Source: a virus. Taken from it: a stretch of DNA of 26,717 nucleotides. Both the position numbers and the translations under genes were made by a program. The stretch is from positions 1 to 26,717 of the IMG/VR virus record IMGVR_UViG_3300023180_005196; one strand, written 5' to 3'. The notes under the pieces were generated by a model. That model saw only the letters and a list, made by a program, of their open reading frames with translations. It ran no database searches and had not been told where the DNA came from. Within the stretch, counting starts at the first letter, position 1; each line of letters begins with the position of its first letter. Of the stretch, positions 6,455 through 21,522 are shown one piece after another.

Positions 6455-6474
6455 TATGCTATAATAAACAAAAC
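6455..6474 (+). promoter_or_regulatory. Repeated promoter motif 1 (extended -10 or late-type)
   Basis: TATGCTATAATAAACAAAAC begins on the base after the stop codon of propeller gene 1 and ends 9 bases before the ATG of the oxygenase gene. It contains TGCTATAAT, a perfect extended -10 element, and also resembles the T4 late box TATAAATA with one A missing. No -35 hexamer is visible at 16-18 bases. The same 20 bases recur at 11771 and 19406, which argues for a functional element. Confidence 0.75.
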
Positions 6475-6483
6475 ATTGATTGT

Positions 6484-7101
6484 ATGAGACAGAATATTAT
6501 TGTTGTTGATGATTTTTATTCCAATCCAGAAGAGGTCAGGAACTTTGCACTGAATGCAGAGTTTCCTGATCCTGGTGAGGACTATACATATCCTGGAAGA
6601 AACTCAGAAGGTTCTTATTATTCAGAAGACATTCATAAGAAGTTTGAGGATCTTGCCAAAGAACCATTGATTCCTGCTGATAAGAATGGATACTTCCGTA
6701 TTTCATTAGAGAAAGATTCTTATAAACAAGACGTTCATGTGGATCCATCCTGGGAATGGGGTGCGGTGATTTATATGTCTGATCCAAAAGATTGTGTAGA
6801 TGAAGGTGGCACATCTTTTTGGAGACATAATAGTTTAAAGATGGAAAACATTCCTAAGACAGATTTTGAGGCACAGCATCACGGATGGCCAACGTATAAG
6901 GAATGTTGGTGGACGACTGTATATGGTGATGGTCTGGATAGAGATAAATGGACACGTTACTTTCTGTGCCCGATGAGATATAATCGTCTAGTATTGTTCA
7001 GAACTCATTTGTGGCACTCACATAATTTTAATTTTGGCGATACATTGGAAAATGGTCGTATGGTTCAGTTGTTCTTCTTTAATCCTGTGAAAGAATGGTA
7101 A
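6484..7101 (+). CDS. Putative 2OG-Fe(II) oxygenase, DUF6445-like
   Basis: 205 residues beginning RQNIIVVDDFYSNPEEVRNFA, an opening typical of small phage 2-oxoglutarate/iron oxygenases of the DUF6445 type. The putative metal triad is H85-x-D87 (in DVHVDPSWEWGAVIYMS) with a distal His at H178 or H180 (LWHSHNF); R192 (NGRMVQLFFF) would bind 2-oxoglutarate. The expected reaction is hydroxylation of a protein side chain or sugar; the substrate cannot be read. It is the first gene after promoter motif 1 and overlaps the sulfotransferase gene by 7 bases (ATGGTAA), so the two should be translated together. The leader would be only about 10 bases with no clear Shine-Dalgarno. A degenerate paralogue lies at 15139. 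Family assignment is from recalled motifs. Confidence 0.72.
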   Translation: MRQNIIVVDDFYSNPEEVRNFALNAEFPDPGEDYTYPGRNSEGSYYSEDIHKKFEDLAKEPLIPADKNGYFRISLEKDSYKQDVHVDPSWEWGAVIYMSDPKDCVDEGGTSFWRHNSLKMENIPKTDFEAQHHGWPTYKECWWTTVYGDGLDRDKWTRYFLCPMRYNRLVLFRTHLWHSHNFNFGDTLENGRMVQLFFFNPVKEW

Positions 7102-7931
7102 AAACATATCACTTTATGGCAGGTCTTCCTAGGTCTGGAAGCACCTTATTGAAAAGTTTAATAGATCAAAACCCAAATATTCACACAGAACCAGTCAGTT
7201 CTGTGATGGAATTGATGTATCATACCGAGGAATACTTTAAGCAATCTGAGCAATATCAAGGATACCCAAAACCACAGAACGCTCATAAGATTATTAGTAG
7301 TTTTATAGAGAACCAGTATTATGAGAGAGAAGAGGAGATAATTATTGATCACTGTCGTGCATGGTCAAATAATATTGAAAGAATAAAGACTTATATTACT
7401 CCCAATCCCAAAATCATTTGCCCTGTTCGTGATGTCGTAGAGGTATTAACTTCTTTCATCACAATGATTCATCGTAATTCTGATGAACTTAATTTTGTTG
7501 ATAAGGCACTGATGGATGGTGGGTTTACTGTAGATGATGATAATCGTTGTCAGTATTTAATGGGTAATGATGGCATTGTGGAGCAGGCACTATGGGCACA
7601 ATCTCAGGCATTCATTCGTCATGATGAGAAGCATTTGTTGATGGTTGAGTATGATGATCTAGTCAATATTCCAGAAGAAACGATGAGAAGAATCTATGAT
7701 TTCTTAGAGGTTGATTATTATCATCACGACTTTAATAATGTGCAGAACAATCACAGGGAAAGTGAGGACCAGTGGAACCTGAAAGATATGCATTATGTTC
7801 GTAACAAAGTCAAGAAGACATCAAAGAAACCTGAAGAGGTATTGTCCCCTTACATTCTAAATAAGTATAAGAAACTGGAATACTGGAAGTATCCCGATAG
7901 TCCTTATTTAATACAAGATGGCAGTAACTAA
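7095..7931 (+). CDS. Sulfotransferase family protein
   Basis: 278 residues. The N-terminus MAGLPRSGSTLLKSLI (G10-T17 core) is the 5'-phosphosulfate-binding loop of PAPS-dependent sulfotransferases. ICPVRDVVEVLTSFI holds R112 and S120, spaced by eight residues as in the 3'-phosphate-binding site. The predicted reaction is transfer of sulfate from PAPS to a hydroxyl, most likely on a glycan or on Tyr/Ser of a protein; the acceptor is unknown. It has no signal peptide or membrane segment, so it would act in the infected cell's cytoplasm. It overlaps the oxygenase by 7 bases and propeller gene 2 by 14 bases, so the three form one tight operon. A product hydroxylated by the neighbour could be the sulfated acceptor, but that is speculation. 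Confidence 0.85.
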   Translation: MVKTYHFMAGLPRSGSTLLKSLIDQNPNIHTEPVSSVMELMYHTEEYFKQSEQYQGYPKPQNAHKIISSFIENQYYEREEEIIIDHCRAWSNNIERIKTYITPNPKIICPVRDVVEVLTSFITMIHRNSDELNFVDKALMDGGFTVDDDNRCQYLMGNDGIVEQALWAQSQAFIRHDEKHLLMVEYDDLVNIPEETMRRIYDFLEVDYYHHDFNNVQNNHRESEDQWNLKDMHYVRNKVKKTSKKPEEVLSPYILNKYKKLEYWKYPDSPYLIQDGSN

Positions 7932-10900
7932 TAAAAGAGGAATATTTTCATTACTTGATGTAAGAGAAAGGCAAGGTCTTGGTGTTTGGTCTGTAAAGTC
8001 TGATGTGTGGACCTCATTTTTTGAGCAGGCACATCCTTTTGGTTACTTTGCTGGTGGTGCTCCTGCTGTATCAACTGTTAGACGAGTAGACTACTCTAAT
8101 GATACTTCAACATCATCACCGAAAGGGGCATTATTTACACCAAGAAGACGACATGCTGGGGTGGGTAATCAAAACTTTGGTTACTTTGCTGGTGGTGGCA
8201 ACACCTCTGCTCCTCTTTTCTCATCGGTAGACCGTATAGATTATTCCAATGACACCTCCCAAGCAACGGTGAGGGGTCCTTTGAGTGCAGCACAAGCTTA
8301 TAATGCAGCAGCTGGTAATTCTGATTTTGGATACTTTGCTAGTAATAGAACGATTTTCGAACGTATCAATTATAGTAATGATACTGTTGCGGCATCACAG
8401 AGGGCAAGCATAAGTCCAGCAAGGTACTTAGCTGCAACAGGTAATGCTTCTTATGGTTACTTTGGTGGTGGTATTGTTGCTGCTGCAGTATCAACAGTAG
8501 ACCGTATTGATTATGCTAATGACACTGCAGCGGCATTAGTAAAAGGACCATTGAATACTGGTAGAAGTTTATTAGCAGCAACAGGTAATGCTTCCTTTGG
8601 TTACTTTGGTGGTGGAATAGTCGGACCAGCATTTAGTGGAGAACAATCCATAGTAGACCGTGTAGATTACTCTAATGATACAGCAACGGCATCACCAAAG
8701 GGTCCACTGTCAAATACACCCGAAGGACTAGCAGCAACGGGTAGTTCTTCATTTGGATATTTTGCTGCAGGAATTGTAAGTCCTAGTTTAGAATATTCTA
8801 CAGTGAATCGTGTTGATTATTCTAATGATACTGCAACGGCATCAATACGAGGTCCTTTACATACATTAGGTTATCAGTTTGCGGCATCAAGTGCTCAGGC
8901 AAATGGAATTACCAAATCAACATTCTTTTCAAAAGGAAATGTATTAAAGGATATAGGATTTGATACTGGTTACTTTGGTGGTGGATTTGGACCAACATCA
9001 TCAACAGTAGACCGTATAAATTACTCTAATGATACTGCTACAGCATCAGCAAAAGGACCATTAAGTGCTGGTAGATATCACCATGCAGCAACAGGCAATG
9101 CTTCCTTTGGTTACTTTGGTGGTGGTGCTCCTGGTCCACTATCAACAGTAGACCGTATTGATTACTCTAATGATACTGCAACCGCATCACCAAAGGGACC
9201 ATTAAGTTCTGCTAGATATCGTTTAGCAGCAACAGGTAATCAATCTTATGGTTACTTTGGTGGTGGTAATGGTCCAGTATCAACAGTAGACCGTATTGAT
9301 TACTCCAATGACACTGCTACAGCATCACCAAAAGGACCATTAAGTCTTGCTAGACAATACGTGACAGCAACTGGCAATAGTTCCTTTGGTTACTTTGGTG
9401 GTGGTAATCCCGGTCCATTATCAACAGTAGACCGCATAGATTATTCTAACGACACTGAAACAGCATCACCTAAAGGTCCATTGAGTCTTGCTAGAAGTCT
9501 TTTAGCAGCAACAGGTAATGCTGATTTTGGTTACTTTGGTGGTAGCACATCAACAGTAGATCGCATAGATTATTCTAGTGATACTGCAACAGCATCAGTT
9601 AGAGGTCCATTAAGTGTTGCTAGATCTGGTTTAGCAGCAACAGGTAATAGTTCTTTTGGTTACTTTGGTGGTGGTGATCCTGGTTCATTCTCAACAGTAG
9701 ACCGTATAGATTACTCTAATGATACCGCAACAGCACCAGCAAAAGGACCATTGAGTGTTGCTAGATATCACCATGCAGCATCAAGTGCCAGAGCAAATGG
9801 ACTTGTAACTAAAACAATACCTCTTCCAATAAATTATGCGACTGGTAATGTTGCTCTTTCTAATGTTGGATACTGGTATAGAACAAATACAAATGTTGAT
9901 GCTGTAACCGCACTAGATTTTTCTAATGATACTTCTAATATTAATAATAGAAGTTCTCTTAATTTTCCTGGTACACCACCACTTGGAGCTTTTGGATATG
10001 GTGCGATAGGAAATACAGGATTTGGATATTTTGCTGATGCGAATAGTCCTCAAACTGGTGTAAGACGTATAGATTATGCAAATGATACTGCCGATGCTAT
10101 TGTGACAAGAAATTTAAATCATTCTGCAGGGGCGCAGATGGTTAGAGCAGGTGTTGGTAATAATGTGTATGGATATTTTACTAATACTATTGTATCAGCA
10201 TTAGAGCGTATTGATTATGCTAATGATTTAGTGACCGATAGAGGAGGATGTCTTTATCCTTTATCTCAAAGATCAGGAACTGGGAATTTGAATTTTGGTT
10301 ATATTATTGGTGGTTCTGGTACACCATCTCCATCTAGCTCGTGGTCATCAATAGAACGTATTGATTATTCTACTGATGGAGCAGCAGCATTAGTTAGAGG
10401 TCCATTGAGTAGTGGTGAGAAAAGATATGGTGGTGCATGTGGTAATGCTGATGGTGGATATTCAATGGGTGGTGATGTTGGCGGTATACCTGGTACAACA
10501 TCATCAGTAGAACGTATAGATTACTCTAATGATACTGTTGCTGCCGCACCAAAGGGTAATTTGAATGTAGATAGAGATAATTGTGCGGCTTCTGGCAATG
10601 CAGATTATGGGTATGTTTATGGTAATGGATATTCTCCGTCAGCGACGGTAACATATTTTGATCGTATTGATTACTCTAATGATACTGCAACAGCATCAAT
10701 AAGAGGGACTGTTGCTAATATCCCTGCTTCTCCTGGATCAGGGACAAGATGTCATGCCGCAATAGGTCCTAGAGATAATGCTCTCTATTCATTAAATCCT
10801 AATACTGGACAACTTCCATCATCTTTAGGACTTCCTATAGCAAGTCGTCCAAGATTTCCAGTCACGGCATTTGGTTATTTTATATCTGGATCTCCTTCCT

Positions 10901-11760
10901 CGGGAAAACTGGGTCGTATTAATTTTCTAAATGATACTGAGAATTCGGTAATAAGAGGATTATTTCCAAGTCCATCTTTCAATTCAAGAGCAGCTACTGG
11001 TAATAGTTCCTTTGGTTACTTTGGTGGTGGAACATGGACATCACAAGTAGATCGTATTGAATATACTAATGATATCGCATTGGCAGTAACAAGAGGTCCA
11101 TTAAATCAAGCAAAAAGCTATCTGGGAGCAACAGGTACTCAAGATTTTGGTTATTTTGGTGGAGGAGATACACCTGGTACTGGAGCAGTATCAACATTGG
11201 ATCGTATTGATTATTCCAATGATACTGCTGCGGGATTAGCAAGAGGTCCATTACTGGTCAGCAGAAATAGATTTGATGGTGTTGGTAATCAATCATTTGG
11301 TTACTTTGGTGGTGGAAATCCTGGTCCAAAATCATCAGTAGACCGTATCGATTATTCTAATGATACTGCATCATTGACTCCTGTCGGACCATTAACACGC
11401 AATATGTATTCGTATGCCGTAACGGGTAATTCATCAGGTGCTTATTTTACTGGTGGCACCCCTGGAACTTTATCATCAGTAGAGCGTATGGATTATTCTA
11501 ATGATACTGCCGCACCAACACCAAAGGGTCCATTATCCCGTGGTAATGTCGAACATGGAGCAACTGGAAATGAAAATTATGGATATTTTATTGGTGGTTT
11601 TCCTGGAAACACATCAACAATAGAAAGAATTGATTATGCCAATGATACCGTGGTAGCATCAATCAGAAGTTTTGTTGATGGTATGGAAACTGATGAATGC
11701 CAAGCAGTATCACCAACAGAAAATGGACTTCCACAATCTTCAGGAACCTTGATTCTTTAA
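7918..11760 (+). CDS. Giant kelch-like multi-propeller fibre protein, copy 2
   Basis: 1280 residues with the same plan as copy 1: cap 1-41 (RGIFSLLDVRERQ, then WSVKSDVW), then 24 kelch-like blades grouped 6+6+6+6 at residues 42-350, 351-650, 651-985 and 986-1280. Only the second propeller (blades 7-12) is close to the consensus. The first, third and fourth contain many altered blades, such as GYFASNRTIFERINYSND and GYWYRTNTNVDAVTALDFSN. Its three linkers differ from those shared by copies 1 and 3. It starts at ATG 7918 inside the end of the sulfotransferase gene (14-base overlap), which suggests translational coupling. It ends 10 bases before promoter motif 2. The likely role is a virion fibre with multiple binding faces; the binding partner is unknown. 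Confidence 0.85.
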   Translation: MAVTNKRGIFSLLDVRERQGLGVWSVKSDVWTSFFEQAHPFGYFAGGAPAVSTVRRVDYSNDTSTSSPKGALFTPRRRHAGVGNQNFGYFAGGGNTSAPLFSSVDRIDYSNDTSQATVRGPLSAAQAYNAAAGNSDFGYFASNRTIFERINYSNDTVAASQRASISPARYLAATGNASYGYFGGGIVAAAVSTVDRIDYANDTAAALVKGPLNTGRSLLAATGNASFGYFGGGIVGPAFSGEQSIVDRVDYSNDTATASPKGPLSNTPEGLAATGSSSFGYFAAGIVSPSLEYSTVNRVDYSNDTATASIRGPLHTLGYQFAASSAQANGITKSTFFSKGNVLKDIGFDTGYFGGGFGPTSSTVDRINYSNDTATASAKGPLSAGRYHHAATGNASFGYFGGGAPGPLSTVDRIDYSNDTATASPKGPLSSARYRLAATGNQSYGYFGGGNGPVSTVDRIDYSNDTATASPKGPLSLARQYVTATGNSSFGYFGGGNPGPLSTVDRIDYSNDTETASPKGPLSLARSLLAATGNADFGYFGGSTSTVDRIDYSSDTATASVRGPLSVARSGLAATGNSSFGYFGGGDPGSFSTVDRIDYSNDTATAPAKGPLSVARYHHAASSARANGLVTKTIPLPINYATGNVALSNVGYWYRTNTNVDAVTALDFSNDTSNINNRSSLNFPGTPPLGAFGYGAIGNTGFGYFADANSPQTGVRRIDYANDTADAIVTRNLNHSAGAQMVRAGVGNNVYGYFTNTIVSALERIDYANDLVTDRGGCLYPLSQRSGTGNLNFGYIIGGSGTPSPSSSWSSIERIDYSTDGAAALVRGPLSSGEKRYGGACGNADGGYSMGGDVGGIPGTTSSVERIDYSNDTVAAAPKGNLNVDRDNCAASGNADYGYVYGNGYSPSATVTYFDRIDYSNDTATASIRGTVANIPASPGSGTRCHAAIGPRDNALYSLNPNTGQLPSSLGLPIASRPRFPVTAFGYFISGSPSSGKLGRINFLNDTENSVIRGLFPSPSFNSRAATGNSSFGYFGGGTWTSQVDRIEYTNDIALAVTRGPLNQAKSYLGATGTQDFGYFGGGDTPGTGAVSTLDRIDYSNDTAAGLARGPLLVSRNRFDGVGNQSFGYFGGGNPGPKSSVDRIDYSNDTASLTPVGPLTRNMYSYAVTGNSSGAYFTGGTPGTLSSVERMDYSNDTAAPTPKGPLSRGNVEHGATGNENYGYFIGGFPGNTSTIERIDYANDTVVASIRSFVDGMETDECQAVSPTENGLPQSSGTLIL
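8041..11700 (+). repeat. 24 kelch-like blade repeats, copy 2 array
   Basis: In-frame tandem units of about 125-160 bases. The DNA of units 7-12 is nearly interchangeable with that of copies 1 and 3, while units 1-6 and especially 13-24 have diverged at both DNA and protein level. Groups begin at 8041, 8968, 9868 and 10873. Confidence 0.88.
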
Positions 11761-11770
11761 ATGCCATAAG

Positions 11771-11790
11771 TATGCTATAATAAACAAAAC
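11771..11790 (+). promoter_or_regulatory. Repeated promoter motif 2 (extended -10 or late-type)
   Basis: The 20-base motif is identical to those at 6455 and 19406. It lies 10 bases after propeller gene 2 and 11 bases before the ATG of the GT-A glycosyltransferase. TATAAT is at 11776-11781 with TG one base upstream. A TTGATT at 11749 is 21 bases from the -10 and so too far to be a good -35. Confidence 0.75.
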
Positions 11791-11801
11791 TGTTATTTGA
11801 T

Positions 11802-12455
11802 ATGGGTATAATGATTGCTCTCCCCTGTCATGGGGGAATTGTGAATGAGAAGACAACAATGAGTTTGTTCAATCTGGGCAAACTCTTAGTAAGAAATGGT
11901 ATTCCACATGGTCTTCTCACACAGGCAAACTCTTCCTTGATTACTCATGGAAGGTCTAAGTGTGCAAACTTTTTTATCAACAACACAGATCATGAATATC
12001 TGTTCTTTCTTGATAGTGATATTGGATTTAATCCAGAAGATGTGTTAAAATTATTGAGTCATAATGAAGACATCGTTTCGGGTACATATCCAATGAAGAC
12101 AATACCGATTCGATATTGTGTTGATGTTCTTCAACCAGAAGAACGTAAAGGTGATTTACTCAAGGTTGGTGGTAATGGAATGGGATTTGTAATGATTCAT
12201 CGTAATGTCTTTACTGATATTGCACGGAAGTTTCCATACCTTAAATACACACCATCAACAAGGGATAGTAACCATCCACCATCAGAAGCAGAGATGAATA
12301 ACTCATATCATTACTTTGCAGAAGAAAGAATTGGTGATAGTTTCGCATCGGAGGACAAAAGTTTCTTTTATCGTGCTAGAATGATAGGATATAAACATTG
12401 GCTAGATACTACAATCAAACTACAACACGTTGGTTCACACGTTTTTGCTGAATAA
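11802..12455 (+). CDS. GT-A fold glycosyltransferase (GT2/Anp1-like)
   Basis: 217 residues. MIALPCHGGIVNEKTTMSL opens like a GT-A domain. LFFLDSDIGFNPED contains the metal and nucleotide-sugar binding DxD (D71-S72-D73), followed by IVSGTYPMK and a GNGMGFVMIHRNVF segment. Near the end are an acidic pair (SEDKSFFYRA, possible catalytic base region) and LQHVGSHVF, whose His could complete metal binding. It is predicted to transfer a sugar from a nucleotide sugar to a phage or host acceptor in the cytoplasm. It is the first gene of the operon after promoter motif 2, with 2 bases before the GT4 gene. It is shorter than typical GT2 enzymes, as phage versions often are. Sugar and acceptor cannot be read. 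Confidence 0.8.
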   Translation: MGIMIALPCHGGIVNEKTTMSLFNLGKLLVRNGIPHGLLTQANSSLITHGRSKCANFFINNTDHEYLFFLDSDIGFNPEDVLKLLSHNEDIVSGTYPMKTIPIRYCVDVLQPEERKGDLLKVGGNGMGFVMIHRNVFTDIARKFPYLKYTPSTRDSNHPPSEAEMNNSYHYFAEERIGDSFASEDKSFFYRARMIGYKHWLDTTIKLQHVGSHVFAE

Positions 12456-12457
12456 TT

Positions 12458-14212
12458 ATGAAATCTGGAGCAACTGAAAGTTCATTTTATTATCTTTCAC
12501 AACACTATGAGTTTCCTGAAGATGTAGAGGTATCACATCTACCAGAGGAACTTAAAAAATCTAATAAACCATATAAGGTTTTGTGGGCACATCATTCCTA
12601 CGATCAACCAGCACTTCTAAATTTCAATCATGAGACTGTAAATCATATTGTTACTCCTTCTCATTGGGCAAAGGAGCAACTGATTAAGTTTCATAAGGTT
12701 CCAAAGAATAAAATCACTGTCATTTCAAATGGTGTGAGTGACATCTTCACCTACTCTGAAAATAAAACGAAGACTTTTATTCATACTTCTATCCCTTATA
12801 AAGGATTGGAGTTGATGCCTGCCATTATACAAAGGATTCATCAAAGACATCCTGATGCGAAGTTCAAAATCTTTTCATCAATGTCCCTCTATGGTCCTCT
12901 GAATGATCCTTATATTGAATTGTATGAAGATCTGAAGAAACTGCCCAATGTAGAATACTCTGCCGCAGTAGATCAAGAAGAACTTGTTACTGCCTATCAG
13001 GATGCTGCCTTCTTTATTCATCCAAACATTTGGGAAGAGACATTCTGTGTCTCTATGGCAGAGGCAATGAAGTCTGGTGCCTATCCAATTATTACAAACA
13101 TTGGAGCACTGTCGGAAGTTGCTGGTGAGAACTTTGCCTCTGTTGTTCCTTTGGATGGAACCCGAACAACCAAGGGATATGAGGTTACAGAAAAGTTTCT
13201 AAATACTTTCGCAGAGGTTTGTTGTACTGCTCTAGATTATTTTGAAGGAGACAGAACATATTATAATCAAATCTCAAAATCACTTTCCAATCATATTTCA
13301 CAAAAGTGTGATTGGAAGAAAGTGGCACAACAATGGAAAAAACTGATTACACGAATTACTAGTGGAGAACCAATGACTAACGAAAACACTGCACTGTCTT
13401 ATACTCCCGTCACTTCTGAGCAGGCAGTGATGGATGATGATTATCTTCAGCAGGCATTTGCCAATGTTCTGAGATGGGAAGAGAGTGATAAGGAACTTGC
13501 ACAAGGTAGAACTAACTTCCAGTTGGAGAAGTTTGCTCTGCTTGAGACTCATACACTTCCCGTTGCCTTTGAGAATACTCTCAAGTCTCGTCGTCAGATG
13601 GCAGAGGGTTATATGTATAAACTCATTGAGATGAAGAAAAAGGTCCGTGAGTTTGAATTCAAGTGGGCAGGTAAGGACCGTAGCCAACCAATCATGTGGG
13701 AAACTGGTGGACCTGGTGGTGGTACGAAAGAACTGTGTTGGTTTGATCTGGATGAACTGTCACTGACTCATTATCTGAAGTCTTCTGAACTTGAGATTCG
13801 TGACCGTTTGCACCAGATGGAGCATCTGGATAAGATTCTTGCCAAACTTGTAGAAGAAAATGGTGGTAAACCAGTCAGTAGAGAGCAGTTCCTGGAAGGT
13901 GACGCTCTGTATTGGGAGCGTCGTTTTGCTGATCAGGCAATGGATGAAATGGTTGCGGCACAGACTGGTATCTCTATTGGTAACCTTCACAGTATGCGTC
14001 GTGCTTCTGCACCTTCTATCGTTGACCCAAGGAACACTCTTCCTGAGGGTTACATGCCTCTGAATAAGATTCTTGAAAGTCCTCAAGGTAGAATGGACTT
14101 CCTCAATGATCTTCAGAAGAAAGTTCTCACTGGTATTCAAGAAGTTACTGGTGAAAATCTTGGAATGATTACTGGTAGCACCGAGGAGCAGAAGAAACTG
14201 GAAGGTAACTGA
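12458..14212 (+). CDS. GT4-like glycosyltransferase fused to a C-terminal domain of unknown function
   Basis: 584 residues. Residues 1-305 form a GT-B glycosyltransferase of group 1/GT4: VISNGVSDIF at the domain hinge, SIPYKGLELM as a nucleotide-sugar domain opening, and HPNIWEETFCVSMAEAM with the EX7E pair E194/E202. Residues 306-584 are unrelated to any GT4 part I recognise. They are charged, mostly helical, with Glu/Lys-rich heptad-like stretches (RRQMAEGYMYKLIEMKKK, EIRDRLHQMEHLDKILAKLV) and a WETGGPGGGTKELCWFDLDE segment. I recall sequences like the second half as separate cyanophage genes, but cannot confirm it. The junction at M306 has its own Shine-Dalgarno. Five bases (plus the ATG of the next gene) separate it from the exostosin-like enzyme. 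The glycosyltransferase call is firm; the tail's role is unknown. Confidence 0.8.
   Translation: MKSGATESSFYYLSQHYEFPEDVEVSHLPEELKKSNKPYKVLWAHHSYDQPALLNFNHETVNHIVTPSHWAKEQLIKFHKVPKNKITVISNGVSDIFTYSENKTKTFIHTSIPYKGLELMPAIIQRIHQRHPDAKFKIFSSMSLYGPLNDPYIELYEDLKKLPNVEYSAAVDQEELVTAYQDAAFFIHPNIWEETFCVSMAEAMKSGAYPIITNIGALSEVAGENFASVVPLDGTRTTKGYEVTEKFLNTFAEVCCTALDYFEGDRTYYNQISKSLSNHISQKCDWKKVAQQWKKLITRITSGEPMTNENTALSYTPVTSEQAVMDDDYLQQAFANVLRWEESDKELAQGRTNFQLEKFALLETHTLPVAFENTLKSRRQMAEGYMYKLIEMKKKVREFEFKWAGKDRSQPIMWETGGPGGGTKELCWFDLDELSLTHYLKSSELEIRDRLHQMEHLDKILAKLVEENGGKPVSREQFLEGDALYWERRFADQAMDEMVAAQTGISIGNLHSMRRASAPSIVDPRNTLPEGYMPLNKILESPQGRMDFLNDLQKKVLTGIQEVTGENLGMITGSTEEQKKLEGN
13364..13375 (+). 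promoter_or_regulatory. Possible internal ribosome binding site and start within the GT4 fusion gene
   Basis: GGAGAACCAATG: a GGAG Shine-Dalgarno five bases before an in-frame ATG (13373) lies exactly at the junction between the glycosyltransferase domain and the C-terminal domain. Initiation here would give a separate 279-residue protein beginning MTNENTALSYTP. It may be a relic of a gene fusion or a working second start. Confidence 0.5.
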
Positions 14213-14216
14213 TCCT

Positions 14217-15134
14217 ATGGAAATTCTTTGCCAACAAAAATTTGCGGATCTTCATGACGGTGATAGAATATTCTATTCAAATATCGCAAGATGTTATGAG
14301 ACATTTAAAGAAATTGAAAAATTAGATCATGAAGTGATTTTAATTACTGGAAATGGACCAGAATTCGTTGGTCATTATGAAGATCCAAATGCAAAATATA
14401 ATGAAGCATATCAGTATTTGAATGATATTTTTCATAACCACCCTAAAAATATAAAATATTGGTTTGCTCAGAATAACATTACAAAAAAGGATAATGTTAT
14501 TCCCATACCACTTGGAATGAGAAATGGTATTCGCAGTTCGGTCAGACCAGATCATGTGACGGGTCATGATTGGGTTGTTGAGCAACATTTAATGTTGGCA
14601 GAAACATATAAAAGTAAAAAACCAGATCCCCAAAAACTTGTATATGTAAATTATTGTGATAGACCAGAACATAGGAGAACGATAGCAAAGTTATGTAATG
14701 ATTATTTGAATTCTCCTTTTCAGTATGCTAATTTAAAATATGAACTTTATCTTTCAAATATTTTAAATCATGAATGTGCCATGTCTCCAATTGGAGTTGG
14801 TGTTGACTGTTATAGAACATATGAAATTCTCTATTGTGATAGAATACCTGTTACAATGAAGGTAGGAAGACACGGTGTAGTATACAGTGATAGTACACCT
14901 CCTTCTTGGACGGGGACGCATAATGCTCCTCCACAGGATGAAGAATATCCTCTTTATACTGAGATATATTCTAAACTTCCAATTGTAATGCTAGACTCTC
15001 TTGAAGAATTAAAAGATAAAACACACTTGAAAAAATTAGTTGATGAACAAAAGAATAAAGAGTGGGATAGAAATCTTATAGATTTTAATTACTGGAAGAA
15101 TATGATTTATGAACACAAGGAACGTTTAAATTAG
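14217..15134 (+). CDS. Exostosin-like (GT47-type) glycosyltransferase
   Basis: 305 residues. The segment from about residue 145 (KLVYVNYCDRPEHRRTI) and especially residues about 185-213 (NHECAMSPIGVGVDCYRTYE followed by ILYCDRIPV) match the exostosin/fucosyltransferase-like GT-B C-terminal domain, where the conserved SPxGxGxDxxRxxE binds the nucleotide sugar. The N-terminal half (FYSNIARCYETFKEIEKL, then VIPIPLGMRNG) fits the acceptor domain. The predicted reaction is glycosyl transfer; donor and acceptor are unknown. It lies between the GT4 fusion and the degenerate oxygenase in the same operon, so three different glycosyltransferases could build a short glycan in sequence. No membrane anchor, unlike eukaryotic exostosins. 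Confidence 0.75.
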   Translation: MEILCQQKFADLHDGDRIFYSNIARCYETFKEIEKLDHEVILITGNGPEFVGHYEDPNAKYNEAYQYLNDIFHNHPKNIKYWFAQNNITKKDNVIPIPLGMRNGIRSSVRPDHVTGHDWVVEQHLMLAETYKSKKPDPQKLVYVNYCDRPEHRRTIAKLCNDYLNSPFQYANLKYELYLSNILNHECAMSPIGVGVDCYRTYEILYCDRIPVTMKVGRHGVVYSDSTPPSWTGTHNAPPQDEEYPLYTEIYSKLPIVMLDSLEELKDKTHLKKLVDEQKNKEWDRNLIDFNYWKNMIYEHKERLN

Positions 15135-15138
15135 AAAC

Positions 15139-15684
15139 ATGAATCAGAAGTTTGTAATTGTGGATGATTTTTATGATGTTGCACACCAATATCATAAAAG
15201 TTTTTTTGAAAACCAGTGTATGATAACTGAAGAGACAACTCAAAAATTATCTTATATTTTGGGTTGTCCTATTCAGATTGTAGAAGCATTTAATGAAGTA
15301 GAAGGAGAGGGTAGTAATAATTCTATCACTGCTAATGTTGGATGTGATTGGATTGCCGTAATTTATCTGACAATGCCATCTGATTGTGTGTCAAAAAAAG
15401 GTTTGAGTTTTTATACACACAAGAAAATAGGACTTGATAGTTTCCCAAATGAATATGCTCGTCAAATTAATGGTTGGCAGAACATGGATGATATTGTTAA
15501 GTCATTTAATGTTGATGATAGAAATGATTGGGAGGAATATGCCAGTGTATTTGTGAAATATAATCGTTGTATTATCTTCAGTGCAGATTTGTGGCATTCT
15601 TATGGAATGGGTTTTGGTAATGAAATAAATAACTCAATGATATACCAGAAACTGTTGATACAACATGGCAAGAGGAATATTTAG
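15139..15684 (+). CDS. Degenerate DUF6445-like oxygenase paralogue (probable pseudoenzyme)
   Basis: 181 residues. The opening QKFVIVDDFYDVAHQYHKSF and the blocks DWIAVIYLTMPSDCVSKKG, YNRCIIFSADLWHSYGMGFG align with the oxygenase at 6484 (EWGAVIYMSDPKDCVDEGG, YNRLVLFRTHLWHSHNFNFG). The catalytic residues do not: H85-x-D87 corresponds to T64-A-N66, and the 2OG-binding R192 corresponds to S166; only the distal His (H153) remains. The reading frame is intact with no stop, so this looks like loss of catalysis with retention of the fold rather than a dying gene. It overlaps propeller gene 3 by 20 bases and is the last small gene before it, as the sulfotransferase is before propeller gene 2. It may act as a binding or assembly partner of the propeller (speculative). 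Confidence 0.65.
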   Translation: MNQKFVIVDDFYDVAHQYHKSFFENQCMITEETTQKLSYILGCPIQIVEAFNEVEGEGSNNSITANVGCDWIAVIYLTMPSDCVSKKGLSFYTHKKIGLDSFPNEYARQINGWQNMDDIVKSFNVDDRNDWEEYASVFVKYNRCIIFSADLWHSYGMGFGNEINNSMIYQKLLIQHGKRNI

Positions 15685-18600
15685 ACTAAAGCAAGTTTAT
15701 GAAGAGCAGTTGTCTGGAAACTGGACTGTTAAACCTGATGTATGGTTAAGTCCGAGTCCATTTTTTGGATCTTGGGATTATGGTTACTTTGGTGGTGGTT
15801 CTCCTAGTAGAACAACAGTAGACCGTATTGATTATTCTAATGACACGGCAACGGCATCACCTAAAGGTCCATTAAGTGCCGGTAGAAATTACATATCAGC
15901 AACGGGTAATAGTTCTTTTGGTTACTTTGGTGGTGGTCAAACTCCTGCTAATGTATCAACAGTAGACCGTATAGATTATACTAATGACACCGCAACAGCA
16001 TCACCTAAGGGACCATTAAGTGCTGCTGGAGCAGCACGAGGAGCAACAGGTAATGGTTCTTATGGTTATTTTGGTGGTGGTGTTCCTGGTCCACTATCAA
16101 CAGTGGACCGTATAGATTACTCAAACGACACCGCAACAGCATCACTTAAAGGACCATTAAGTCTTGCTAGATATTCATTAGCAGCAACAGGTAATAGTTC
16201 CTTTGGTTACTTTGGTGGTGGTCGGGATTCTAGTCCTAGTACAGTATCAACAGTAGACCGTATAGATTACTCTAATGACACAGCAACAGCATCACCTAAG
16301 GGACCATTAAGTGTTGCTAGATATCGTTTAGCAGCAACAGGTAATTCTTCCTTTGGTTACTTTGGTGGTGGTGGAACTTTAGCAGTAGACCGTATAGATT
16401 ACTCTAATGATACCGCAACAGCATCACCTAAAGGTCCATTGAGTGCTGCTAGAATATACTTAGCAGCAACAGGTAATAGTTCTTTTGGTTACTTTGGTGG
16501 TGGTTTTCCTGGATTCTCAACAGTAGACCGTATAGATTACTCTAATGATACAGCAACAGCATCAGTAAGAGGTCCACTAACTCTTGCTAGAAGTGGTTTA
16601 GCAGCATCAAGTGCCAAAGCAAATGCAATCACTGATTTAACCTTATTGCCAGCATCAAGCGACCAAAGACCTAATGTAGTACCACAAGGAACTGACTTTG
16701 GTTACTTTGGTGGTGGTCAAACAGTATCAACAGTAGACCGTATAGATTACTCTAATGACACTGCAACAGCATCACCTAAAGGACCATTAAGTCTTGCTAG
16801 AAATTTTTTAGCAGCAACAGGTAATAGTTCTTTTGGTTACTTTGGTGGTGGTGCTCCTGCTCCAGTAAAATCAACAATAGACCGCATCGATTACTCTAAT
16901 GATAGTGCAACAGCATCACCTAAAGGTCCATTAAGTTCTGCTAGATATCGTTTAGCAGCAACAAGTAATAGTTCTTTTGGTTACTTTGGTGGTGGCAGTA
17001 CTCCTTCTGTAGTATCAACAGTAGACCGTATAGATTATTCTAATGACACTGCAACAGCATCACCTAAGGGACCATTAAATACTGGTAGAAGAGATTTAGC
17101 AGCAACTGGTAATAGTTCTTATGGTTACTTTGGTGGTGGTGGAAATCTAGGGCAAACGATAGTAGACCGTATTGATTATTCTAATGATACCGCAACAGCA
17201 TCACCAAAAGGTCCATTAAGTGTTGCTAGGTATCGTTTAGCAGCAACGGGTAACGATTCTTATGGTTGGTTTGGTGGTGGAGAGGCTCCAGGACCAACAA
17301 ATTTTTCAGTAGTAGACCGTATAGATTACTCTAATGATACCGCAACAGCATCACCAAAAGGACCATTAAGTACTTCTACAAGACAAGCACCGGCAGCAAC
17401 AGGTAATAGTTCTTTTGGTTACTTTGGTGGTGGTGATGATGGTGGATCTAGTTCAACAGTAGACCGTATCGACTACTCTAATGACACCGCAACAGCATCA
17501 CCCAAAGGACCATTAAGTCAAGGTAGAGAACGTTTAGCAGCATCAAGTTCCAGAGCAAATGCAATACCACTCAAAGGACCTGGTGTCCTGGAAGTAGCAG
17601 TGAGATTCAGTGATGGAACTCTTGAGACTTACAATACCGGTTACTTTGGAGGTGGTAATCCTAGTCCAAGATCAACCGTAGACCGCATAGATTACTCTAA
17701 CGACACCGCAATAGCATCACCTAAAGGTCCATTAAGTGCTGGTAGATATGATTTAGCAGCAACAGGTAATAGTTCTTATGGTTACTTTGGTGGTGGTAGA
17801 ACTCCTTCTACAGTATCAACAGTAGATCGTGTAACCTATTCTAATGATACTGCAACAGCATCACCAAAGGGACCATTAAGTCTTGCTAGATATCAATTAG
17901 CAGCAACAGGTAACAGTTCTTTTGGTTACTTTGGTGGTGGTTATAGTCCTGCTTCAGTATCAACAGTAGACCGTATTGATTACTCTAATGACACAGCAAC
18001 AGCATCACCTAAGGGACCATTAAGTGCTGCTGGAGGATACTCTGGAGCAACAGGTAATAGTTCTTTTGGATACTTTGGTGGTGGTGCTCCTGGTTTAAGA
18101 TCAACAGTAGACCTTATTGATTACTCTAATGACACTGCAACAGCATCACCTAAAGGACCATTAAGTCTTGCTAGAAATTCTTTAGCAGCAACAGGTAATA
18201 GTTCTTTTGGTTACTTTGGTGGTGGTGGTCCGGGTCCATTATCGACAGTAGACCGTATAGATTATTCTAATGACACTGCAACAGCATCACCAAAGGGACC
18301 ATTGAGTGTTATTAGCAGTGTATTAGCAGCAACAGGTAATAGTTCTTTTGGTTACTTTGGTGGTGGTTTTGGTCCATTATCGACAGTAGACCGTATAGAT
18401 TATTCTAATGACACTGCAACAGCATCACCTAAGGGAATATTAAGTGTTGCTAGACTGCGTTTAGCAGCATCAAGTGCCAGAGCCAACGGATTTGCTGCAA
18501 TCGGTCCATCAGTAACAGCAAACGTTTCAAGATTTGGTCCCGCAGGATATGGTTACTTTGGTGGTGGTAGTGGTAATAGTTCAGTAGTTAATAGAATTAA

Positions 18601-19405
18601 CTTTACTAATGATACTGCTACAGCAATACGTCTTGGTGATTTGTCTGATGGTAGAGATAAACTAGCAGCAACAGGTAACAGTTCTTTTGGTTACTTTGGT
18701 GGTGGAAAAAATGGTACAGTAGTGGATCGTGTTGATTATTCAAATGATACTCTGTCAGCGAAGGGTAATTTGACTACTCCTGGTAGAGAAAATCTCAAGG
18801 CAGTTGGTAATGCTAATTTTGGATATTTTACTGGCGGACAGGATTCTCCTGCTACTTATAGAAGTGATGTAGATCGCATTGACTATTCCAGCGATACTTC
18901 AACGGCATTAGATAAGGGTCCATTGACTGCTAATAGAGCTGAACACTCGGCAACTGGTAATCAAAACTTTGGTTATTTTGCTGGTGGACTACCTGGAGTT
19001 GGATCAAAAATAGAAAGAATTGATTATTCTGATGACACTGTAACCGCATTATCTAAAGGTTTTATTAGTACTCCTAGTAGAATTAGACTTGCGGCAACAG
19101 GTAATGCTAACTTTGGATATATTGGGGGAGGTGATCCTGGATTGTCAATAGTAGATCGTATTGATTATTCTAATGATACTGCTACGGCATCACCTAAGGG
19201 TCCATTGAGTGCTGGTAAATCATATTTGTCTGCAACGGGAAATCAAAACTTTGGGTATTGGATGGGAGGAAGTCCTAATGCATCTACTATAGACCGTCTT
19301 GATTATTCTAATGATACTACAGCTGCAACACCTAAAGGTCTATTGGCAAATGGAAATACAAAATCCGCAGCAGTTTCTGCAGGAGAATATGGACTTCCTA
19401 ACTAG
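15665..19405 (+). CDS. Giant kelch-like multi-propeller fibre protein, copy 3
   Basis: 1246 residues: cap 1-39 (RGIFRLKQVYEEQLSGNW, then TVKPDVWLSPSPF) followed by 24 blades grouped at residues 40-345, 346-658, 659-962 and 963-1246. The first three propellers are almost pure consensus, the most homogeneous of the three genes; the fourth has diverged. Linkers 1, 2 and 3 match those of copy 1 in the same order, with exact DNA identity over 77 bases in linker 2 and 51 bases in linker 3. It starts at ATG 15665, 20 bases inside the end of the preceding gene. Its stop codon directly abuts promoter motif 3. The role proposed is the same as for copies 1 and 2: a long propeller chain exposed on the virion; not proven. 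Confidence 0.85.
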   Translation: MARGIFRLKQVYEEQLSGNWTVKPDVWLSPSPFFGSWDYGYFGGGSPSRTTVDRIDYSNDTATASPKGPLSAGRNYISATGNSSFGYFGGGQTPANVSTVDRIDYTNDTATASPKGPLSAAGAARGATGNGSYGYFGGGVPGPLSTVDRIDYSNDTATASLKGPLSLARYSLAATGNSSFGYFGGGRDSSPSTVSTVDRIDYSNDTATASPKGPLSVARYRLAATGNSSFGYFGGGGTLAVDRIDYSNDTATASPKGPLSAARIYLAATGNSSFGYFGGGFPGFSTVDRIDYSNDTATASVRGPLTLARSGLAASSAKANAITDLTLLPASSDQRPNVVPQGTDFGYFGGGQTVSTVDRIDYSNDTATASPKGPLSLARNFLAATGNSSFGYFGGGAPAPVKSTIDRIDYSNDSATASPKGPLSSARYRLAATSNSSFGYFGGGSTPSVVSTVDRIDYSNDTATASPKGPLNTGRRDLAATGNSSYGYFGGGGNLGQTIVDRIDYSNDTATASPKGPLSVARYRLAATGNDSYGWFGGGEAPGPTNFSVVDRIDYSNDTATASPKGPLSTSTRQAPAATGNSSFGYFGGGDDGGSSSTVDRIDYSNDTATASPKGPLSQGRERLAASSSRANAIPLKGPGVLEVAVRFSDGTLETYNTGYFGGGNPSPRSTVDRIDYSNDTAIASPKGPLSAGRYDLAATGNSSYGYFGGGRTPSTVSTVDRVTYSNDTATASPKGPLSLARYQLAATGNSSFGYFGGGYSPASVSTVDRIDYSNDTATASPKGPLSAAGGYSGATGNSSFGYFGGGAPGLRSTVDLIDYSNDTATASPKGPLSLARNSLAATGNSSFGYFGGGGPGPLSTVDRIDYSNDTATASPKGPLSVISSVLAATGNSSFGYFGGGFGPLSTVDRIDYSNDTATASPKGILSVARLRLAASSARANGFAAIGPSVTANVSRFGPAGYGYFGGGSGNSSVVNRINFTNDTATAIRLGDLSDGRDKLAATGNSSFGYFGGGKNGTVVDRVDYSNDTLSAKGNLTTPGRENLKAVGNANFGYFTGGQDSPATYRSDVDRIDYSSDTSTALDKGPLTANRAEHSATGNQNFGYFAGGLPGVGSKIERIDYSDDTVTALSKGFISTPSRIRLAATGNANFGYIGGGDPGLSIVDRIDYSNDTATASPKGPLSAGKSYLSATGNQNFGYWMGGSPNASTIDRLDYSNDTTAATPKGLLANGNTKSAAVSAGEYGLPN
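15782..19370 (+). repeat. 24 kelch-like blade repeats, copy 3 array
   Basis: In-frame tandem units of about 129-153 bases, with groups beginning at 15782, 16700, 17639 and 18551. Units 1-18 are highly homogenised at DNA level; the phrase gcaacaggtaatagttcttt occurs many times. Units 19-24 are divergent and match the final units of the other copies only at protein level. Confidence 0.9.
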
Positions 19406-19425
19406 TATGCTATAATAAACAAAAC
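19406..19425 (+). promoter_or_regulatory. Repeated promoter motif 3 (extended -10 or late-type)
   Basis: The third exact copy of the 20-base motif starts on the base after the stop codon of propeller gene 3 and ends 9 bases before the ATG of the prolyl-hydroxylase-like gene. TATAAT is at 19411-19416. There is no -35 hexamer at the right spacing. Confidence 0.75.
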
Positions 19426-19434
19426 ACTGATAAT

Positions 19435-20097
19435 ATGATTAATAATCCACTGACTCATATTCTGATCCGACCCAATGTAATCTCTCCCGAAGGTATTCGG
19501 GAGATGGTTGACCACATTAAGAGATCACCTTGTGAAGATCTTTCTGTATTTGATGCGGAGACTACAAATAGAACTGGTGAAACATCATGGCAGGTTGATA
19601 AGAAGACAAGAGATACTCAGATTGTCCCTATGGGAGATTTATTTCCTAAAATTGAGCAACTTCTTCGTCATGCCGTAAAGGAAATCATCAATCCTTTTTA
19701 TGGTATTGAAGTATCCAGCAGTGAAATACCACAAGTTCTTTCTTATGGTGTTGGTGGTCACTATAAACCTCACATTGATGGGGAGAGTATCTGGGTCACA
19801 CCAAAGGGAGAACACATCTGGAAGAAATCTACGGATAGAGACATCTCCTTGGTATTCTATCTGAATGATGATTTTGAGGGTGGTGATTTTATTTTCCCAG
19901 AACATCATATTCGTGTGAGACCCGAACCAGGTATGATGGTTTGTTTCCCATCCAGTCATCATTACATGCACGGAGTAGAACCAGTAACCAGAGGAAAGAG
20001 ATATAGTATTGTGACCTGGGCTACGGTAAAAGGACAACCTAGTATGGATGAGATTAATAATCAGTTGTCTCAACAGTATGGAGTTCCTGTAATTTAA
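19435..20097 (+). CDS. Prolyl-4-hydroxylase-like 2OG-Fe(II) oxygenase
   Basis: 220 residues with the full P4H-type motif set: GGHYKPHIDGES supplies H113-x-D115, FYLNDDFEGGDFIFPE is the conserved strand pair after it, SSHHYMHGVEPVTRGKRYSI supplies the distal H179 and the 2OG-binding R189. The enzyme would hydroxylate a protein side chain (proline in the classical family) or a small molecule, using 2-oxoglutarate, O2 and Fe(II). It is unrelated at close range to the DUF6445-like oxygenases in this window. It is the first gene behind promoter motif 3 and stands 3 bases before the carbamoyltransferase, so both are one transcript. Such oxygenases are common in marine cyanophages; targets are not established. 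Confidence 0.85.
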   Translation: MINNPLTHILIRPNVISPEGIREMVDHIKRSPCEDLSVFDAETTNRTGETSWQVDKKTRDTQIVPMGDLFPKIEQLLRHAVKEIINPFYGIEVSSSEIPQVLSYGVGGHYKPHIDGESIWVTPKGEHIWKKSTDRDISLVFYLNDDFEGGDFIFPEHHIRVRPEPGMMVCFPSSHHYMHGVEPVTRGKRYSIVTWATVKGQPSMDEINNQLSQQYGVPVI

Positions 20098-20100
20098 ATT

Positions 20101-21522
20101 ATGGCAAATATTTTAGGATTGAACTTTGGACACGATGGATCCGTGTGCCTTGTTAAAGATGGTAGGTTGGAGTTTGCCATTGCAACAGAAAGAATTTCTA
20201 AGATTAAGAAGCAGCAAGGATTCACGGATGAGATTATTAATTATGTTTTAGATTCTTGTCGTATAACACTTGATGATATTGATTGTGTTGCCACAAATGA
20301 TTTTAAGCAAGAAGTCTTTGGTAATCAGTATCTGGTAGATAAGATAGTCATTCAAGGCAAAGAGTTTAAGTGCTATATTATTTCACATCACTTGTCTCAC
20401 TGTGCCTCTGCATATTACACAAGTCCTTATGATAAAGCATACTGTTTTAGTATGGACTGTAGTATGGGAAAACCAGAAGCAAATTCATTGATTGCTTATG
20501 GTGAAGGTAAAAAACTTATGGCAATGTACTGTCCAGCAGAGATGGTTGGTGTTTTGTATGGAGAAGTCACTGAAAAATTAGGATTGGGACCAGCACTCCA
20601 TAAGGCAGGAACAACAATGGGATTGGCATCTTATGGAACACCTTTTGATTTTGATTATCAATCCTATACTGATGAGATTAAACATAAGATGAATGTGGCA
20701 GCATCTGTTCAGGATTTATTTGAGAAAAAGGTTCTGAATGTATTGAGTGAACTTGATGATAAGACAGACAATCTTTGTTTATCTGGTGGGTCATTCTTGA
20801 ATTGTAACGCCAACTCCAAGGTTGTGATGTATTCTAAGTTCAAGAATGTTCATCACTTCCCTGCTTGTGGTGATGATGGAACCTCTGTTGGGTCTGCACT
20901 CTATGTTGCACATCATATTCTTGGGGAATCAAGACATGATTATCAACAGAAAGATCTATGTTATACTGGTAGAGAGTATCAGTCTCAAACGCCAGACTAT
21001 GAATACATAGCAAAGCAACTTGCCGATGGCAAGATTATTGGATTCTTTCAGGGTAGATCTGAGTTTGGTCCAAGAGCACTAGGTAATCGTTCTATTCTTG
21101 CCGACCCAAGAAACTTTCACAATCGTGAACTAATCAATCACGTTGTCAAGAATAGAGAATGGTTCCGCCCTTTTGCTCCTGTTACATTAGAAGAGTGTTA
21201 TCAGGACTGGTTTGATTTTCCTATTCCTAGTCCCTACATGCTTTATACTGCACAGGTCAAGCAACCAGAAAAGATACCAGCAGTCACTCACGTTGATGGG
21301 TCGGCTAGATTTCAAACAGCCACAGAAGAATCTAACAAACATTACTACGAGATTATCAAGGCATTTGGAAATCTGACAGGAGTGCCAGTCTTACTTAATA
21401 CAAGTTTGAATGGTAATGGACAACCTATTCTTGAAACGGAAGAAGACGCAAGAGAGTTTTACAAGAACTCCAATCTTGATATGATGGTTGTTAATGGTAT
21501 AATACATACAAATAAAGTGTAA
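20101..21522 (+). CDS. Carbamoyltransferase, NodU/TobZ family
   Basis: 473 residues. ILGLNFGHDGSVCLVKDGRL is the N-terminal ASKHA-type phosphate-binding opening (H11, D12). SHHLSHCASAYY (H96, H97, H100) is the family His cluster, LSGGSFLNCNANSKV a conserved sugar-kinase-like block, and GRSEFGPRALGNRSILADPR starts the YrdC-like C-terminal domain; WFRPFAPV and LLNTSLNGNGQPI follow as expected. The enzyme makes carbamoyl-adenylate from carbamoyl phosphate and ATP and transfers the carbamoyl group to a hydroxyl, in known cases on a sugar or antibiotic. It is slightly shorter than typical (about 550-600). In this setting the acceptor may be a sugar laid down by the nearby glycosyltransferases (inference). 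The promoter of the next gene lies inside its 3' end. Confidence 0.88.
   Translation: MANILGLNFGHDGSVCLVKDGRLEFAIATERISKIKKQQGFTDEIINYVLDSCRITLDDIDCVATNDFKQEVFGNQYLVDKIVIQGKEFKCYIISHHLSHCASAYYTSPYDKAYCFSMDCSMGKPEANSLIAYGEGKKLMAMYCPAEMVGVLYGEVTEKLGLGPALHKAGTTMGLASYGTPFDFDYQSYTDEIKHKMNVAASVQDLFEKKVLNVLSELDDKTDNLCLSGGSFLNCNANSKVVMYSKFKNVHHFPACGDDGTSVGSALYVAHHILGESRHDYQQKDLCYTGREYQSQTPDYEYIAKQLADGKIIGFFQGRSEFGPRALGNRSILADPRNFHNRELINHVVKNREWFRPFAPVTLEECYQDWFDFPIPSPYMLYTAQVKQPEKIPAVTHVDGSARFQTATEESNKHYYEIIKAFGNLTGVPVLLNTSLNGNGQPILETEEDAREFYKNSNLDMMVVNGIIHTNKV
21476..21503 (+). promoter_or_regulatory. Sigma70-like promoter for the glutaredoxin gene
   Basis: TTGATA (21476-21481), a 16-base spacer, and TATAAT (21498-21503) with TG one base upstream form a near-consensus host-type promoter inside the carbamoyltransferase 3' end. 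The glutaredoxin ATG is 22 bases past the -10. Unlike the motif ahead of the decoration genes, this one has a -35 hexamer. Confidence 0.65.

Follow-up and report, generated by a model that had tools for sequence, protein, structure and literature searches.

The DNA analyzed here (the window) is the 26,717 nt IMG/VR record IMGVR_UViG_3300023180_005196, positions 1 to 26,717; the whole record is this 26.7-kb fragment. Its genes (Table 1) form an array that opens with a tail-fibre-like gene and continues with three giant kelch propeller genes and three groups of enzyme genes, called cassettes A, B and C below. NrdC, ThyX, PhoH-like and exonuclease genes lie downstream of the array, arranged much as in phage S-SKS1, and the NrdC-ThyX-exonuclease block beside the propeller array is syntenic with that phage; we identify the window as part of the genome of an S-SKS1-like T4-type cyanophage. 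Among the window genes tested, none was recognised as encoding a recombinase or homing endonuclease.

Table 1. Genes and junction motifs of the array, in window coordinates.
Feature	Position	Strand	Basis
Tail-fibre/adhesin-like repeat protein, first in array, 5′ end beyond window	2..2644	+	ORF; repeats such as GYQAG; same position in relatives
Giant kelch propeller protein 1, 1265 aa	2657..6454	+	phrog_19111 E=1.9e-204; kelch-type repeats
Junction motif copy 1, abuts propeller 1 stop; extended −10 (TATG C TATAAT) and A-rich stretch	6455..6474	+	exact match
Cassette A: DUF6445, 2OG-oxygenase-like with HVD...H	6484..7101	+	Pfam PF20043 E=2.5e-13; alignment
Cassette A: sulfotransferase	7095..7931	+	Sulfotransfer_3 E=6.6e-20
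Giant kelch propeller protein 2, 1280 aa; 14-nt overlap with sulfotransferase (recurs in relatives)	7918..11760	+	phrog_19111 E=2.4e-157
Junction motif copy 2	11771..11790	+	exact match
Cassette B: glycosyltransferase-like, 217 aa	11802..12455	+	phrog_1574 E=1.8e-31; phrog_34859
Cassette B: glycosyltransferase group 1, 584 aa	12458..14212	+	PF00534 E=1.1e-12
Cassette B: putative glycosyltransferase, 305 aa (GT305)	14217..15134	+	weak RXYLT1_C match, below cut-off
Cassette B: short DUF6445, HxD metal site lost	15139..15684	+	PF20043 E=5e-4; alignment
Giant kelch propeller protein 3, 1246 aa; 20-nt overlap with short DUF6445	15665..19405	+	phrog_19111 E=3.3e-237; structure model of one domain
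Junction motif copy 3	19406..19425	+	exact match
Cassette C: 2OG-Fe(II) oxygenase	19435..20097	+	PF13640 E=1.8e-18
Cassette C: NodU/Nol-type carbamoyltransferase	20101..21522	+	PF16861 E=4.2e-64

The cassette contents had been read earlier, from the sequence alone, as oxygenase plus sulfotransferase, three glycosyltransferases plus a degenerate oxygenase, and hydroxylase plus carbamoyltransferase, and the profile matches bear this out. The HxD site of the short DUF6445 protein is missing in all three phages aligned (the window, L073:12415-12948 and L086:9259-9759), and in these three the gene has kept its place, overlapping the propeller start; it is a probable conserved pseudoenzyme. No homologue of GT305 was found among the relatives fetched, and it is a gene gained within cassette B, away from the motif.

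The propellers match kelch structures by sequence, and each of the three in the window has some 20 blades or more, arranged in four groups of roughly six. An AlphaFold2 model of one propeller 3 domain, made with 51 homologous domains (pLDDT 83, pTM 0.86), matches Keap1 and the designed SAKe six-bladed kelch propellers in Foldseek with TM values of 0.78-0.80 and E near 1e-17. The modelled domain is predicted to be a kelch six-bladed beta-propeller in which six four-stranded blades are closed. Phage proteins matched by the propellers include some annotated as virion structural proteins. Each blade of the three window propellers carries YSNDT, with 20-22 NDT motifs and 35-47 N-x-S/T sites per protein, and short variable loops lie between the conserved blade motifs; these sites and loops are possible places of modification or diversification. 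In most cases, relatives included, the propeller start overlaps the preceding enzyme gene by 8-20 nt, which suggests that the enzyme and its downstream propeller are probably translationally coupled.

A 20-mer, TATGCTATAATAAACAAAAC, occurs exactly three times in the window and on the + strand only (shuffled windows contain a mean of 0.01 copies), and the count remains 3 when three mismatches are allowed. As the sequence-only reading had said, its copies start at 6455, 11771 and 19406, that is 0, 10 and 0 nt after the propeller stops and 9, 11 and 9 nt before the next enzyme starts. At the second copy, with its 10 nt gap, a second in-frame TAA is located one base 5′ of the motif: a newer, earlier stop probably arose upstream of this old one at the end of propeller 2. 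Identity among the three copies is confined to the 20-mer, with 0-2 extra bases upstream and 0-1 downstream. The motif had been said to follow every giant gene, which is true of the three propellers but not of the tail-fibre-like gene, which is directly followed by propeller 1 without it.

What kind of element is the 20-mer? At all three sites its core, TATG-C-TATAAT, within TATGCTATAAT, is a perfect extended −10 (TRTG-N-TATAAT), and by this consensus match the motif is promoter-like. A −35/−10 scan of the window listed none of the three sites and found no −35 there, so a −35/−10 promoter was rejected, as was a T4-type late promoter (NATAAATA is absent from all three). A promoter early stem-loop (PeSL) with its stem-loop was rejected, since RNA folding of the three junction flanks against shuffled sequences gave z-scores of 0.52, 1.02 and 0.06 and no hairpin; no terminator-like site lies on the + strand at the three window junctions. 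A known RNA element was also rejected, as the junction element has no Rfam match. In the window's clade, the extended −10 TATGCTATAAT is expected to be read, without a −35, by the host RNA polymerase and its housekeeping sigma factor.

Because the window's record is itself a 26.7-kb fragment, the 207.6-kb genome of a relative, G001, was used for a genome-wide test. A 19-mer allowed up to three mismatches has exactly three sites in G001 (5870, 12059 and 204993), all of them propeller-enzyme junctions, and a looser core, TATGNTATAATA, has one further site. The array was matched at 49 and 41 loci in two overlapping IMG/VR scans. Among non-redundant relatives, which are mostly metagenome contigs and may still include near-duplicates, a promoter-like element is present at 60 of 65 propeller-to-enzyme junctions (43 an extended −10, 16 an ATAAATA and 1 both). 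The extended −10 stands at 44 of the 65 junctions and at 5 of 374 other gene starts (p about 1e-38); its TG and TATAAT are set by the search rule and therefore give no independent evidence of conservation, and the flanking bases vary. Thus the motif is not equally common before unrelated genes, the outcome named beforehand as refuting a link to cassette boundaries, and the relatives carry it at the same junctions as the window. The exact 20-mer is not universal, each phage having its own version; the "identical 20-base promoter" of the sequence-only reading is right about the association with junctions but wrong in that versions are per phage and ATAAATA is found instead at a quarter of junctions. 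The same 18-mer precedes genes in the unrelated phages L009, L018, L019 and L020. The 18-mer matches in unrelated phages (L009, L015-L023) were rejected as members of the array; they have no propellers and are chance or convergent −10 sequences.

Does the promoter-like element belong to the propellers or to the enzymes? There are nine cases in which a cassette's first enzyme comes directly after another enzyme. Six of these have no promoter match, and in one more the match falls within the preceding gene; the remaining two (L036 and L080) retain a match because a collapsed one-blade propeller with its 3′ end remains. Because the promoter is usually absent where the same enzyme follows another enzyme, we assign the promoter-like element to the propeller 3′ end and not to the enzymes. 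The unit of promoter, enzymes and propeller proposed earlier is indeed repeated with different enzymes, but its promoter goes with the propeller before it. The collapsed propellers (L036:1835-2170 and L080:19815-20155) are down to one blade but still have the usual N- and C-termini as well as the promoter-like element, and in L082 (9915-10010) a propeller reduced to 12 codons (MSIREDVFGLPQ) still has a late-type element at its end.

Similarity between junctions of different cassettes is 0.75 when they share a genome and 0.66 when they come from different genomes (permutation p=0.0002), and the within-genome excess is found when propeller 3′ end, 20-mer and leader are each analysed alone. For example, TATGCTATAATAGTATAATAAAC is duplicated at both L036 joints, TATGTTATAAT is present at both joints of 003105 (L049/L076), and in G001 the leader AAAAGATTGATTATATG precedes three different genes. 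Similarity of the propeller C-termini goes with the genome (0.46 vs 0.29), with no association with the downstream gene (p=0.49); the N-termini track the upstream gene class (p=0.002) and the genome too. These comparisons indicate that the junctions are homogenised within each genome (concerted evolution).

The order of the cassettes is A-B-C in the window, 003259, L086 and L093 and B-A-C in G001, 025869, 003105, 043446 and others, and the two orders have switched at least four times on the tree of the 2OG proteins, a count that is approximate because many forks of this tree are weak. Repeats can give chimeras in metagenome assemblies such as those of the relatives, yet both orders recur in several contigs. 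Comparison of cassettes among relatives for breakpoints at the motif, as had been proposed, found one clean case at the motif edge, in a single pair (L073 and L029): over its last ~900 nt the propeller is mostly 94-100% identical between the two, the identity continues through TATGATATAATAAACAAAAC, and divergence begins at the last motif base, with a DUF6445 gene following in one and a glycosyltransferase gene in the other. The reordering and this breakpoint agree with the earlier idea of a modular locus that swaps cassettes at a fixed junction, but genes are also gained inside cassettes (GT305 and the stretch after the 2OG oxygenase). The stretch from the 2OG oxygenase to NrdC is a second hot spot (L026:8026-12211, L029:10509-14715, L049:12093-19672), which contains sulfotransferases, another carbamoyltransferase and many unknown genes.

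Could these patterns arise with no special recombination at the junction, the motif being a strong promoter under purifying selection and the cassettes the products of an old tandem duplication? Part of the identity among copies could come from selection for a strong promoter, as the conserved core is the extended −10 consensus, and the 18-mer of the four unrelated phages shows that an independent origin is possible. We nevertheless consider this explanation unlikely, given that the G001, L049/L076 and L036 variants are phage-specific, non-consensus and common to different cassettes of one genome, that within-genome similarity is in significant excess, and that the L073/L029 pair has its breakpoint at the motif.

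The junction elements fall into two classes, the sigma70 extended −10 (44 of 65) and the T4-type late ATAAATA (16-17 of 65, about a quarter), and the latter overlaps the propeller stop codon (CCACAATAAATA). Where the window's clade has the extended −10, sister clades have ATAAATA; the class switches at least three times on the 2OG-protein tree, and in 025869 joints 1 and 2 are of the extended −10 class and joint 3 is ATAAATA. In the T4-like cyanophages S-PM2 and Syn9 the late promoter is NATAAATA and early sites are sigma70-like (PMC2984593). Because enrichment of TATAAATA in the large relatives was not clearly above a reversed-pattern control, our late reading of the ATAAATA class is drawn from its position, the tail-fibre-like genes and the literature. 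An alternative is that the window's element is itself a variant gp55-type late promoter, not a sigma70 one, and that all cassettes are expressed late like other virion genes; the shared position of the two classes, the likeness of the propellers to virion proteins and the TATAAATA at one S-SKS1 junction would suit it. We judge it quite improbable, since TATAATAA is without the cyanophage late consensus (PMC2984593), the extended −10 match is perfect, and these phages have the same TATGCTATAAT core behind terminator hairpins at other sites. Such terminator-plus-TATGCTATAAT sites in S-SKS1-like relatives (e.g. L033:5701) suggest a shared promoter core. At a PeSL-like site upstream of ThyX (L033:5701, L037:7938, L039:14685), a hairpin (ggggggttgcaagaccctc) and a T-run are followed directly by TATGCTATAATTAATTCAAA.

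The reading that we favor, and regard as probable, is that of a modular array in which homologous recombination through the propellers shuffles cassettes, while the promoter fused to the propeller end supplies the next cassette with a promoter. In this array a tail-fibre-like gene and a kelch propeller are followed by two interchangeable [enzymes + propeller] cassettes (A and B) and a terminal cassette C, and the 3′ end of each propeller gene has a putative promoter fused to it that overlaps or abuts the stop codon. Recombination between the highly repetitive propeller genes, within them or at the joint and presumably by a phage UvsX-type system, would reorder, delete and homogenise cassettes; the window propeller genes have identical stretches of up to 77 bases in common, in principle enough for phage recombination. 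Because the promoter would travel with each propeller end, any cassette arriving downstream would stay expressed. That the 20-mer is instead the target of a site-specific or homing nuclease or recombinase that moves cassettes, as a short, fixed and identical sequence at the joints and the HNH and homing endonucleases of S-SKS1 might suggest, is very improbable given that the window genes tested have no recognised enzyme of this kind, that the 20-mer differs among phages and is replaced elsewhere by the ATAAATA class while reordering persists, and that the homologous propeller repeats already supply an explanation.

A further and more doubtful step from the modular array is a "self-promoting" recombination joint, in which the promoter fused to the stop of a surface gene would express any incoming cassette at once and exchange of sigma70 and late elements, as in 025869, would reset its timing. 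Because of the probable translational coupling and the chemistry of the enzymes, we infer that the cassette enzymes may modify the propellers or other surface structures.

PeSLs are mobile regulatory cassettes of T4-type phages (PMC4503421, citing Arbiol 2010 and Comeau 2014). They resemble the junction element in that both are short, conserved, promoter-containing intergenic repeats between modules, thought in the case of PeSLs to aid T4-like gene shuffling; the window's repeated element has, by its sequence, an early sigma70-type promoter and sits at module boundaries in association with shuffling. They differ in that the window-type joint has no stem-loop or terminator, its promoter is joined directly to the stop codon of a gene for a giant repeat protein, some joints have a late-type element instead, and homology reaches into the propeller genes. 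A stem-loop is a defining part of a PeSL. Because it is absent here, we keep the junction element outside that group: PeSLs are the closest known kind, and the element works like one but is not a member.

The 208-kb T4-type cyanophage S-SKS1 (Llyrvirus, NC_020851) carries an array of the same kind that runs across the ends of its record, with a tail-fibre-like gene, 2OG oxygenase, kelch propellers, sulfotransferase, 2OG oxygenase, other genes and NrdC at the end. It differs from the window in its enzyme set, in propellers that are interrupted or unannotated, and in having no 20-mer at its propeller junctions within five mismatches and TATAAATA at one of them. In the public record its propeller genes (201825-207188 and the record start) are for the most part missing from the annotation or present as fragments. 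The two junction classes match the early and late promoter classes of S-PM2 and Syn9 (PMC2984593), but here either class can occupy the one position at a propeller end, and one replaces the other from relative to relative and, in 025869, even between joints of a single phage. T4-like cyanophages also gain and lose mobile gene cassettes of zwf, gnd, petE and PTOX (PMC3037559), which are like the present cassettes in their gain and loss but are metabolic genes beside endonucleases, with no propeller-promoter joint. No published description of this propeller-enzyme array was found in the literature searched.

The array is widespread and pairs giant kelch proteins with hydroxylase-, sulfotransferase-, glycosyltransferase- and carbamoyltransferase-type enzymes, plausibly as a system that modifies and diversifies virion surface proteins. 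The proposal gives a concrete mechanism by which large marine phages could reshuffle surface-protein and modification genes without loss of expression, the promoter travelling with the repeat gene. Since joints of the host-type and phage-late promoter classes alternate, it would also link gene shuffling to the timing of expression, two questions that are mostly treated apart.
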